A DNA stretch of 64,000 nucleotides, from contig JADFQA010000010.1 in the NCBI GenBank assembly GCA_022562055.1, positions 1-64,000 on the forward strand. Reading direction: 5' to 3'. Of this stretch, positions 18,163 through 22,779 are shown one piece after another. Both the position numbers and the translations under genes were made by a program. The stretch's first letter is position 1. Every line of letters starts with the position of its first letter. Below the pieces are notes generated by a model. The model made no database searches and was not told where the DNA came from. It was given only the letters and a program-made list of their open reading frames with translations. The DNA is from Acidobacteriota bacterium (lineage in GTDB: Bacteria > Actinomycetota > Acidimicrobiia > Spongiisociales > UBA5794).

Positions 18163-18488
18163 CAGCCCAGGAGGCCACCGAGGCCCATCCCCCCGGTAAG
18201 ACCACCCATTGCCGAACTCGCGTCCTGCGCTGCGGAAGCCATTGCCTGGTTCACCGCAGCGACGACGAGATCGCCCGCCATCTCGGGGTCTTCGGGGTCG
18301 AGTGCTGACGAATCGAATACCACCTCGAGAAGTTCACCCGAACCGTTCACCGTCGCCTTAACGACACCGCCACCTGCAGTGCCTTCATAGGTTCTGTCGG
18401 CGAGTTCTGACTGAGTCTTCTGGAGCTGTGCTTGCATCTGCTGCGCTTGCGCCATGAGCTGGCGCATGTCTTTTGGCATGCGTCCCAT
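18162..18488 (-). CDS. ybaB: YbaB/EbfC family nucleoid-associated protein
   Basis: A 108-residue protein with the YbaB core: [22 protein letters not shown] helix, [15 protein letters not shown] strand pair, and AAVNQAM C-terminal helix. It ends in a Gly-rich tail ([10 protein letters not shown]). YbaB dimers bind DNA and sit next to recR in most bacteria. The ATG at 18488 is supported by TAACCT (18496-18501, minus strand) 7 nt upstream. A second Met four codons in is possible. It is the first gene of the three-gene operon. Confidence 0.93.
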
Positions 18489-18590
18489 GGACACGAGGTT
18501 AGCGCATTGCAGTGGTTTCCCTGGTGTCGCCGGCGCCGTGGTCGGCGCTGCTCGTGGGTGTATCGGCGTGGGTGCGAGTATCGTGGAGTC

Positions 18591-19001
18591 ATGCTCCCGT
18601 ACAATCTCGATCACGTGGCCATTGCGGTCCATGATCTCGACGCCGCTATCGATGGTTACCGCACGATGTTCAACATTGATGTGCTTCATCGTGAGGTGGT
18701 CGCGGATCAGGGTGTCGAAGAAGCGATGCTCGCGGTCGGTGGGTCGCATGTCCAGTTGCTTCAAGCGTTGAGTGATGACAGTCCGGTTGGCAGGTTTGTC
18801 GCTGCGAACGGAGAAGGGCTACACCACATCGCGTTTGCGGTCCCTGACCTTGCTTCTGCGCTGGAGCACCTCAAGGAGCAGGGTGCAAGGCTGATCGATG
18901 AGACTCCGCGTACCGGAGGCCGGGGTGCCAAGATAGCGTTCGTACATCCACTCGAACTAGCCGGAACGCTGATCGAACTTGTCGAGGTAGCCGATGGATA
19001 G
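18591..19001 (+). CDS. mce: Methylmalonyl-CoA epimerase
   Basis: A 136-residue vicinal-oxygen-chelate protein. His8 in LDHVAIAV, Gln in GSHVQLLQAL, His in GLHHIAFAV and Glu in LIELVEV supply the metal ligands of methylmalonyl-CoA epimerases. It interconverts (R)- and (S)-methylmalonyl-CoA in propionate metabolism. The ATG at 18591 is preceded at 6 nt by TATCGT (18579-18584), with no Shine-Dalgarno. The stop overlaps the next small gene by 8 bp, linking it with an acyl-CoA carboxylase epsilon-like subunit. Confidence 0.9.
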   Translation: MLPYNLDHVAIAVHDLDAAIDGYRTMFNIDVLHREVVADQGVEEAMLAVGGSHVQLLQALSDDSPVGRFVAANGEGLHHIAFAVPDLASALEHLKEQGARLIDETPRTGGRGAKIAFVHPLELAGTLIELVEVADG

Positions 19002-19209
19002 TGTTGAAATCACTGGCGGTGCGGGACCGCACGAAGCCGCGGCGGTGATGGCGGCCATCGTTCAGTCGATGCAAGAACAGGCTGCGGCGAGTTCGATCGG
19101 TGAGGTTACCGCACGGCCCTCGGGCTGGCAGCGCGCAGATGACGATCCCGCTGTTTGGCGCCCGACCGGACACGATCGGTCTGGGCTGGAACCCAGACGC
19201 GGGGAGTAA
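18994..19209 (+). CDS. Acyl-CoA carboxylase epsilon subunit-like small protein
   Basis: A 71-residue protein. The pattern VEITGGAGPHEAAAVMAAI then ARPSGWQRA matches the short actinobacterial AccE/PccE epsilon subunits: an N-terminal strand, a P-x-E-A/E-x-A-A helix, then a Trp-containing tail. These subunits stabilise acetyl- or propionyl-CoA carboxylase complexes. It overlaps methylmalonyl-CoA epimerase by 8 bp, which fits the propionyl-CoA route. The alpha and beta subunits are not in the window. Identification rests on a short motif only. Confidence 0.5.
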   Translation: MDSVEITGGAGPHEAAAVMAAIVQSMQEQAAASSIGEVTARPSGWQRADDDPAVWRPTGHDRSGLEPRRGE

Positions 19210-19261
19210 ACGGCGACCCAGCGATGATGCGTTCCGTCCCCACGTCAGAATCTGCGCAACC

Positions 19262-20612
19262 ATGACCTGGGACGTCGACGTATACGACCTCCATGCCGAG
19301 GCTCTTGTGAGGCTAGCAACCGTACTTGTCGGCCCAGATCGTGCTCCTGAGGTTGTGTCCCGGGTGGTGCTCCAAACTCTTGTACGCAGACCTTTGGCCG
19401 ATCTCGACAATCCGGCGGTTGTTTCTTTTACGGGAGGTTGTCCGCGAGGCTCAAAGCAGGAGCCGGCAGGGTCTGTCGAACAAGCAGGACGTACCTGTCA
19501 TTCCTGCGCCCACGATCGGTACCAGGTTGTTGTTGGAGATGCCGATGAAGCAGCGTGCTGCTGTGTACTTCGCATACTGGGTGGGCCTCAGCTCGTTCGA
19601 AACTGCGGGCATCCTGAAGGTCCGACCGTTCACCGTTCGTCGCTTTTTGAGTATGTCCCAGCGTCGGATGCGTGAGTCGGGATCCGACAAAGGGGAACAC
19701 GGACATCCATGGGTACGTGCAGAGTTTCGTGAGGCGCTGAAGCCAATCTTGGCCAAAAGTCCGCGGGAAGAGAGTTACGAGAGGATTCGCTCAAGGGTGT
19801 TGCAAACACACAGACGTCAGCGTTTGCGGACCTTGGTTGCAGTTGCGGTCGGTATCGCGATGGTGGTTGGAGTGGGTGCGCTTGTTTCATCGGAGCAACG
19901 CAAATCGGCGCAACCCTCGCCCGATGCGGTACCCGCATCGACGACGGTGGTGACGGTGGCGGAGAGTTCGACAGCGATCTCAAAAGGAGGCATCACCATC
20001 ACCGCGCCCGGTCCGAGTCCACGGCCAGCATCCGACACTCTGTGCTGCGCAGGCGATCCGTTCGGATTCGGTACCTCGATCGGTGCCGATGGCCTTACCG
20101 TTGCACTCCAGAACGAGCTGTTTGGTGCGCTCGCGGGCGTAGAGATCCCCGGTGTGGACACGGTCGTCGCTCAAGGTGGAAAACCAGTTGGTGTCATCAA
20201 GACGACGGACGGTGTCTTCGCTGCTTTCGCTTCGGGCTCGACTCCGTGGGTGGAGGTCGTAACGCGAAAGAACTGGGGGTGGATCACAACCGTACGCCTC
20301 GTGTGGACGGGTCTACCCGACGACACTGCTGTGGTCCGACTTTCAATGTCCGGCGCTGCCAGCGTTCTCCAACGTCCCGTTGGTCAGACTGTATTCTTCG
20401 ACATCCCCAGACTAGGTTGGGATCAGATCGCCACGCTCACAGCGTTCGACAGCTCTGGAAAACCGACCGCCGTGAGTAGGGTCGAACTCGAAGGCGGCGG
20501 GTGTTCCGGTAGGTTGTCCGACGTACCGTTTCCAGATCGCACCTTGCCTGACGACATTGGTGCGGTCCGCAACACAATTCTTGATGCAGCATTAGGTGTG
20601 AAGCTTCCTTGA
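19262..20612 (+). CDS. Membrane-anchored ECF sigma-like protein, interrupted by an apparent frameshift
   Basis: Two overlapping frames make one sensible protein. From the ATG at 19262 the first frame reads YDLHAEALVRLATVLVG...VVLQTLVRRP...DNPA, which looks like sigma region 2. Near 19415-19430 similarity moves to the +1 frame: FLLREVVREAQSRSRQ, then LLLEMPMKQRAAVYFAYWVGLSSFETAGIL...VRRFLSMSQRRM, resembling sigma region 4. A transmembrane helix (LVAVAVGIAMVVGVGALV), a Thr/Ser/Pro linker and a roughly 220-residue extracytoplasmic beta-rich part follow. The interruption may be a sequencing error or a real mutation. The 19326-20612 frame alone lacks region 2. The next gene overlaps the stop by 4 bp. 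Confidence 0.6.
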
Positions 20613-21253
20613 TCGACGAGATTCTGCGTCAGCGTCCCGGCACCACGATCTCTGTCAACGGTGTTGCTCGTATTGGTGGCATGTCACGCTTCGATCTTGA
20701 TTTCCCCATCATGTTCAACATCGGGCTGGCGTTCACGGAGCCGTGGAACATCGAACCCGGGGCCGCCGGAGATATCTTCGTATGGACGCTCGAAACCGAC
20801 GACACCACAGTGCAGATAGAGGTACCGCTTGTGCCGCGACCCGACAACAGTCGTCCGGTTCTAGCGATCCGCGGTCTTGTTGTGGACGTCATGACGGCTC
20901 TGCGCGCGGTGGAGCCACGGATTCAACCGTCATCCGTCCCTCCCCATTCATTAGTCGGATTCACCATCCCTGGAGATGACGATCCTCTGTCGCTGTGGGT
21001 CTGGGCAATCGGCGACGATGCAATTGTCGCTGTTGCCCTCTCAGGTCTCGATGCATTTCCTCCTCCGATAAGTGTCATTGAGACCGCGATCGGTCCGATC
21101 GAGACTTACGACCTGCGCGTCGGTGACCGCGAAAGCGACCTCGTCGTAGCGAGGGGGGTCTGCGAGTATTTCCAGGTGGCGATTGCGTCGGGGAGCGGCA
21201 AACCCCGCGCCGACCTGCTTGAGCGTGCTGTCGCTGCTATCGACTGCCGATAG
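20609..21253 (+). CDS. Hypothetical protein coupled to the sigma-like gene
   Basis: A 214-residue protein starting at a TTG that overlaps the upstream stop (TTGA). No signal peptide or membrane helix is seen. The residue pattern is beta-rich, with conserved-looking segments FNIGLAFTEPWNIEPG, DIFVWTLETDD and LSLWVWAIGDDAIVAVAL. I do not recognise a family. The upstream protein's extracytoplasmic part also has VRLVWTGLPDDTAVVRL, so a related or partner role is conceivable. If the sigma-like gene is truly broken, expression of this one may be affected. Confidence 0.45.
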   Translation: MIDEILRQRPGTTISVNGVARIGGMSRFDLDFPIMFNIGLAFTEPWNIEPGAAGDIFVWTLETDDTTVQIEVPLVPRPDNSRPVLAIRGLVVDVMTALRAVEPRIQPSSVPPHSLVGFTIPGDDDPLSLWVWAIGDDAIVAVALSGLDAFPPPISVIETAIGPIETYDLRVGDRESDLVVARGVCEYFQVAIASGSGKPRADLLERAVAAIDCR

Positions 21254-21402: not shown

Positions 21403-22722
21403 CTAGCCCGTAACGCGTTCGGAACGATTCTGTTGGAACATCGCGACTGGCGAACCCTGTAGGCCCGATGGGGTCTCTGCGATTTCGGGTGTCGCGATTC
21501 CGACGAGTTCGACCGTGAAACAGAAGCGGGATCCGGTTGGGAAGCGTGGTTCGAACCACAGATCCCCGTTCATTGCTCGTAACAGCTTGCGCGCAATCGG
21601 CAGACCGAGACCGACGCCCTGCTCGGCGCGACCGCTGCCTTTTGAGCCCTGTTCAAAGTGCTCGAAGATCTTGGCGCGGTGGTCTAGTGGAACACCTGGC
21701 CCGTTGTCTGAGATAACTACCTTGTAACGATCGCCCGACGCCGAACCTTCAATGAGGACTTGGTCTCCGCCGTACTTGCGGGCATTCTCGAGAAGATTCC
21801 TAAGTACTTGTTTGACTCGTACGTTATCCGCAAAGACCGTGACGCCACGGGGGACGGTGATAACGAATTCCTTTTCGGACTCACGGAAGATCGCCTCCGC
21901 GATTTTCAACGCTTCGTCCCCAATGTCGAACTCTGCGGGGTCCATGCGGAGCTGTCCCGCCTCAAGCCGCGGGATAACGAGTATGTCTTCCACGAGGTCT
22001 GTCAGGTGTGTGGTTTCTTCACGAATGATTGCGAGGAACTCATTGATTTCGGCGGCCTCAAGCACATCCCAGCTCTCTGTGAGCGTGTCGGTGAAGCCCT
22101 GGATCGACGTCAGCGGGGTTCGCAGCTCGTGGCTAACCATCGAAACGAATTCGTTCTTGATCGCGGACGCCCTACGCTCGGATTCGAGTGCTTCGAAATG
22201 CGCTTTCTTCGCTCGGTACAGAGCGACGCCGGCGGATATCAAAAGTTGTGCAACGTAGATCGTGAGAATCGTGGTCACTAACCACGCGAACACAACGGAT
22301 ATCGTGTTGAGCATCGAGTCGAACAGCACAATTGGGATACCCCACATCGCGGCATACGAAATGGCCCCGAGCGCTTGGGGGGCGGGTAGCAGAAGCAATG
22401 CGGACGTGAGTGTATAGAGGATTCCCGCAACGACCACTGCCGGTTCGACGCCGTTAATGAACAATCCCGCGGCGGTGATTGTGATGTCGAGGACTAGGGG
22501 GTACAGGGCTGATTCGCCATGTGATAGCCGCCACAACGCGTCCCCTGTCATGACGACGCCCGCGCCTAGAACGAGTCCAGCGCCAGGGCCGCCGAGAATG
22601 AAAATGGCCAGCGCACCGAGCAGCACGAACACGCCGGCAATCGCTCGTACGGCGTTGTATGCCGTGCGTACGGCGGTGTAGCTAATCGGTGCTGCGAACC
22701 GCGCAACCAAAGTATCCGGCAT
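21403..22722 (-). CDS. Membrane sensor histidine kinase
   Basis: A 439-residue kinase. Five or six N-terminal transmembrane helices (about residues 25-165) form an integral-membrane sensor without a large periplasmic loop. HisKA follows, with H198 in VSMVSHELRTPL, and then HATPase_c with N box NLLENARKYG, G1 SDNGPGVP, F box IFEHFEQGS and G2 GVGLGLPIAR. No response regulator is adjacent. The ATG at 22722 has AAGGAAGGAA about 8 nt upstream, which decides against the 14-residue longer start. It is probably transcribed after the PHP gene. Confidence 0.88.
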   Translation of the reverse strand: MPDTLVARFAAPISYTAVRTAYNAVRAIAGVFVLLGALAIFILGGPGAGLVLGAGVVMTGDALWRLSHGESALYPLVLDITITAAGLFINGVEPAVVVAGILYTLTSALLLLPAPQALGAISYAAMWGIPIVLFDSMLNTISVVFAWLVTTILTIYVAQLLISAGVALYRAKKAHFEALESERRASAIKNEFVSMVSHELRTPLTSIQGFTDTLTESWDVLEAAEINEFLAIIREETTHLTDLVEDILVIPRLEAGQLRMDPAEFDIGDEALKIAEAIFRESEKEFVITVPRGVTVFADNVRVKQVLRNLLENARKYGGDQVLIEGSASGDRYKVVISDNGPGVPLDHRAKIFEHFEQGSKGSGRAEQGVGLGLPIARKLLRAMNGDLWFEPRFPTGSRFCFTVELVGIATPEIAETPSGLQGSPVAMFQQNRSERVTG

Positions 22723-22779
22723 GTTCACTGTTCCTTCCTTGCTGGTGTATCGGCACGCCGACATGCAAGGTGAAGCAAA

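Follow-up and report, generated by a model that had tools for sequence, protein, structure and literature searches.

A probable decaying remnant of an ECF sigma factor fused to a membrane-bound sensor, split by two reading-frame changes

Positions 19262 to 21253 of the window, by which we mean the whole stretch of 64,000 nucleotides that was analysed, correspond to one ancestral protein, now in pieces. Joined in order, the pieces begin with a degenerate ECF sigma region 2, followed by region 4; a short helix on the cytoplasmic side leads to a single transmembrane (TM) helix, and the rest forms an extracytoplasmic domain without a recognised family. This locus is probably the decaying remnant of an ECF sigma factor fused to a membrane-bound anti-sigma-like sensor. 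A preliminary description had proposed a frameshifted gene for a sigma-like factor joined with its own sensor or anchor in the membrane, and the finding of an intact orthologue in a single ORF (L079) agrees with this proposal. The features of the locus and its immediate neighbours are as follows.

18432..18998, + strand: upstream neighbour, methylmalonyl-CoA epimerase-like (glyoxalase family; Pfam Glyoxalase_4, 5e-24).
19262..19414, + strand: sigma region-2-like segment, first part of the fused protein, in frame 2; it starts MTWDVDVYDLHAEALVRLATVLVGP.
19415..19425, + strand: first reading-frame change, from frame 2 to frame 3 (tblastn of the intact orthologue).
19425..19680, + strand: end of sigma region 2 and region-4-like helix-turn-helix, in frame 3 (Sigma70_r4_2, family HMM and alignment).
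19681..19828, + strand: short cytoplasmic helical segment, FREALKPILAKSP, putatively sigma-holding (alignment of pre-TM segments).
19829..19891, + strand: single TM helix of positive-inside orientation, RRQRLRT-LVAVAVGIAMVVGVGALVSS (hydropathy).
19892..20590, + strand: extracytoplasmic domain, first part, with a GGGCSGR motif, in frame 3.
20579..20594, + strand: second reading-frame change, from frame 3 to frame 2 (tblastn; AAxRCD motif split across the frames).
20594..21253, + strand: extracytoplasmic domain, C-terminal part (the "partner gene" of the preliminary description).
21403..22764, − strand: downstream neighbour, convergent sensor histidine kinase (HisKA and HATPase_c).

The epimerase-like neighbour also adjoins the fused gene in two other genomes, G001 and G002, and the histidine kinase gene is syntenic and intact in G002. 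Within 18994-19260, the small accE-like ORF that follows the epimerase gene is shorter in the window than its counterparts in G001 and G002, and from the end of this ORF to position 19262 the window shows poor conservation. An Rfam scan of the window returned nothing but a tRNA.

When the intact orthologue was compared with the window by tblastn, it aligned with positions 19259-19414 in frame 2, 19425-20594 in frame 3 and 20588-20827 in frame 2. The first switch, near 19415-19425, coincides with the frame change noticed previously; the second, near 20579-20594, shows that two frame changes, instead of the single-base shift that had been suggested, interrupt the gene. The frame that opens at ATG 19262 comprises only 137 codons, with a stop at 19673, and of its predicted 137-residue product only about the first 51 residues would be read in the sigma frame; the window strain is expected to have no functional sigma. 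The second break splits the conserved AAxRCD motif, which is unbroken in L079 and in more distant sensors: the orthologue reads through as LDAAIRCDAGSIEQILR, and the window has LDAA / RCEASLIDEILR. Because the orthologue is continuous at this point and the motif is split, the ORF at 20609-21253, previously taken for a coupled partner gene, encodes the C-terminal part of this one protein. Alignment with the orthologue also revealed that about 18-20 residues are missing from the window gene where region 4 begins. In the comparison with G002 over the same 40 kb, most of the syntenic neighbours show about 60-92% identity and align in single frames, and the window gene, with 38-52% identity, is among the most diverged.

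The orthologue L079 (JAADIG010000069.1, from an Actinomycetota MAG) is the copy carried by a congener, that is, the G002 gene. It is one intact ORF of 544 aa, in an open frame of 550 codons, that spans both break sites and includes region 2, so that this orthologue does not begin at the second frame. Its start, neighbours and architecture match those of the window gene, and in G002 the epimerase-like and accE-like genes lie upstream and several more genes are collinear. Identity to L079 is 50-52% for 19262..19414 (L079 residues 1-52), 43% across most of 19892..20590, and 52% for 20594..21253 (L079 residues 461-541). The orthology of the two genes is based on this synteny and on the identity outside the sigma domain, and not on the joining of long branches in the tree. 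L079 is the one intact orthologue of exactly this fusion that was found; in the second congener, G001, the same gene start, MTGDVDVYDEHAEAL, which follows the pattern MTxDVDVYDxHAEAL, was located directly before the end of a contig. The length of the sensor differs between species, since the orthologue (L079:5001-6632) ends about 130 residues earlier than the window protein, whose corresponding stretch is 20840-21253.

The sigma domain was evaluated with a profile HMM built from stand-alone relatives, using 200 shuffles of the joined segment as a control. The joined window segment scored 105 bits, the region-2 fragment from ATG 19262 scored 47.9 and the region-4 fragment 51.6, and the best shuffle reached 4.3. 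These values, together with the hydropathy profile, support the earlier assignment of a region-2-like segment to the first frame, and of region 4, a TM helix (about 19829-19891, after RRQRLR) and an extracytoplasmic domain to the frame at 19416-20610. The proposed check against curated models gave a weak signal, much less clear than that of the family profile. Sigma70_r4_2 exceeded its cut-off in the orthologue (26.8 bits in L079, cut-off 25.7) and remained below it in the joined window segment (20.5 bits), whereas Sigma70_r2 had no match in the N-terminal fragment. We rejected the silence of Sigma70_r2 as evidence against region 2, since the family HMM with its shuffle control detects this region. 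Sigma similarity was also recovered by the SigE family model TIGR02983, with an E value of 4e-8 over residues 8-138 of the joined window sequence. This was the best-ranked NCBIfam model for both the window and L079, at scores (33.2 bits for the joined window segment, 23.5 bits for L079) that fall far short of its curated cut-off of 141.55.

A property that the preliminary description did not mention is the degeneration of this domain. Among 44 conserved sigma columns, 17 are changed in the window and 16 in L079, whereas the stand-alone relatives have a median of 4 such changes and never more than 12; neither protein has thus kept the conserved positions of the stand-alone family. In the tree, the end branches of the pair measure 1.29 and 1.69, versus a median of 0.25. 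Judged from these comparisons of sequence, the sigma domain is real by descent and degenerate in both species.

The segment that precedes the TM helix (19681..19828) has the same position and motif as the N-termini of stand-alone partner membrane proteins; the motif, roughly IRxAhxxhVxxAPxPPxh, is common to partners and fused proteins in an alignment that took in the stand-alone partners and three fused proteins. In L079 the TM helix is found at residue 203, in the same single ORF as the sigma domain. The linker, in which Pfam detected no zinc finger, is free of cysteines in the window and has a single one in L079, and the Pfam search of linker and sensor revealed no FecR-like part and no other family. 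A match of the sensor to MacB_PCD (E 0.0025, below the cut-off) was absent from the orthologue and was judged to be due to chance. The sensor profile search against the PDB gave no significant match, the best being TodS with an E value of 0.28. The sensor domain of the window also occurs in separate membrane partners of G007 and G011.

Most related sigma genes of the same order (51 of 56) are stand-alone and are followed directly by a single-TM gene; the sigma proteins are mostly about 155 aa long, and the TM gene most often overlaps. This arrangement indicates that the window gene is a fusion of a sigma/anti-sigma-like pair. A second fused protein, L011 (G042, L011:1102-2697), combines sigma, TM and META parts and has a well-kept sigma domain. 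In the tree, where the window and L079 each form a long branch, L011 sits among the unfused pairs L002, L038 and L043, apart from the window/L079 pair, and the starred branches force at least two changes. Read in this way, the tree requires fusion to have occurred independently at least twice, once in the window lineage and once in that of L011. A third and more distant fusion, L019 (G013, L019:1252-2943), has a divergent sigma domain, with a region-4 match over the Pfam cut-off; its extracytoplasmic part is long.

Many of the sigma genes (L002, L011, L030, L026 and others) carry a clade-specific ECF-like promoter less than about 150 bases upstream of the start. The class A pattern, TGYAAC-N17-CGTG, was present in 15 of 58 upstream regions, in 14 of them near the start codon (0.22 in shuffles), and its −35 part alone in 28 of 56 (1.5 in shuffles). 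Class B, GTCACCC-N17-CGTC-like, was recognised in 12 of 56, all with 17-base spacing (0.05 in a cruder shuffle control), and class C, TGTCAGCGA-N14-GGTGTCT, in 5 of 58 (none in shuffles). These contrasts with the shuffles are inflated by the kinship of the genes and by the derivation of the patterns from the very sequences tested. The promoter class tracks the sigma clade, as autoregulation would give, which suggests that a promoter code runs parallel to the sigma tree. In L079 (G002) and in G001 the sole element observed was a class A −35-like one; upstream of the window gene no promoter of these classes was recognised, nor even a −35-like element. Across the whole genomes G000, G001 and G002, class A sites were no more numerous than in the backward control, and hence no regulon can be read from these counts.

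The window and L079 were compared codon by codon in three segments. The pN values were 0.30, 0.38 and 0.28, versus pS values of 0.95, 0.71 and 0.63, and change at third versus second positions was 0.77 versus 0.26, 0.66 versus 0.34 and 0.54 versus 0.27; the region-4/linker part was the least constrained of the three. In addition, the frames stay open after the breaks, for 431 and 222 codons. The excess of third-position change and these open frames imply that the gene was constrained during most of its history and that the breaks are recent or artefactual. It follows that the gene retained a function of some kind over most of the period since the window and L079 species split. Codon comparisons for the neighbours asd, 33664, 36969 and accE were out of frame and do not enter this analysis.

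The same observations could be accounted for if the organism carried an intact gene and both frame changes had arisen as errors of sequencing or assembly in the draft. We consider this unlikely, though it has points in its favour: the codon pattern is of the purifying type in all three segments, long frames stay open after each break, the first break lies inside a T-rich stretch and the genome is a draft of 83 contigs. However, the syntenic neighbours compared with G002 over 40 kb show no comparable frame switch, the second break is outside any homopolymer, and indel errors would not explain the loss of about 18-20 region-4 residues and of the promoter element. It is the missing promoter element and the missing region-4 residues that tip the balance towards decay. 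Programmed ribosomal frameshifting, which would join the frames into a regulated full-length product, is also in line with frames that are open and constrained after each break, but it would require two shifts in opposite directions at sites through which the orthologue runs in one frame, and by eye no slippery motif is common to both sites; we regard it as highly improbable. We give hardly any credence to an arrangement of two genes, in which a sigma-TM protein is followed by a translationally coupled extracytoplasmic partner from 20609. The ORF 20609-21253 does overlap the preceding stop (TTGA), but the orthologue and the distant sensors of G007 and G011 continue from the AAxRCD region into the next stretch within a single chain.

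A different possibility concerns the genus and not the breaks: the fused protein may survive as a non-sigma protein, with the sensor and anchor kept and the sigma domain serving as a non-initiating scaffold or sequestering module. The sensor is tighter than the sigma/linker part between the two species (dN of 0.37 vs 0.74), conserved sigma residues have been lost in both orthologues, and the L079 frame is still open. Against this, the window copy is broken, the helix-turn-helix pattern of region 4 is partly kept, with L079 over the Pfam cut-off, and the comparison involves two sequences only, so that we find this reading rather doubtful. Decay of a fused sigma factor and sensor remains our preferred interpretation of the window locus.

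In the ancestor of the decaying gene, the short pre-TM helix and the TM anchor would have kept the sigma domain at the membrane; given that there is no zinc-finger anti-sigma domain, unlike in ECF52, the pre-TM segment is the sole candidate for holding it. Once the C-terminal domain had sensed a signal outside the cytoplasm, the sigma would be released; by analogy with IutY, the simplest route would be stepwise proteolysis with an M50 site-2 protease as the final enzyme. Both G000 and G002 encode M50 site-2 proteases, but these enzymes are nearly universal (14 of 14 control genomes), so their presence only permits the release model. The freed sigma would drive a small regulon, its own promoter included, and in this genus the sigma domain would have drifted from the conserved core of the family. 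We advance, as a tentative generalisation with a low probability, that sigma/sensor pairs of this order repeatedly fuse into single membrane-tethered sigma proteins without a zinc finger, in which only a pre-TM helix of about 45 residues holds the sigma, and that in this genus sigma competence was lost while the sensor stayed constrained. If this were true, the genus would be left with a membrane sensor whose sigma domain is vestigial. The fused and unfused versions within one order, with clade-specific promoters adjoining, constitute a natural series in which one may ask what the minimal membrane anti-sigma segment is and what becomes of a sigma covalently tied to its sensor. For such questions the window copy represents mainly a stage of decay, and the useful material is provided by the intact relatives L079 and L011.

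Close counterparts exist within the same order. Stand-alone pairs such as L008, L002 and L030 share with the window gene a homologous TIGR02983-like sigma and a homologous pre-TM segment, and the partners in L006 and L008 have a sensor domain homologous to that of the window gene. In contrast to the window gene, these pairs consist of two overlapping genes, keep the conserved sigma residues and in many cases have class A, B or C promoters upstream. L011 has the same layout as the window gene, derived from an independent fusion of a related pair, but its sigma domain scores 206 bits instead of 105, its class C promoter is kept and its sensor is a META domain.

Membrane-fused ECF sigmas are already known, namely ECF48, ECF52, ECF53 and ECF243/IutY (PMC8999054), and the layout, which had been described as unusual, is uncommon but not unprecedented. 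ECF52 (SCO4117) and ECF48/ECF53 of Actinobacteria resemble the window gene in having sigma, TM helix and a long extracytoplasmic domain in one chain (PMC5826349, PMC8999054), and their activation by release from the membrane has been proposed (PMC8999054, PMC5826349). Unlike the window gene, they carry a zinc-finger anti-sigma domain that separates sigma from the TM helix; in the window, moreover, the sigma is degenerate and no carbohydrate-binding domain was found. IutY of Pseudomonas putida (ECF243) likewise unites a sigma and a membrane anti-sigma-like part in one protein, which is released through Prc/RseP proteolysis (PMC8999054); it belongs to a proteobacterial iron-starvation surface-signalling system, whereas no FecR-like domain was found in the window gene. 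The ancestral gene most likely resembled the ECF48/52/53 and IutY fusions, minus the zinc-finger domain.
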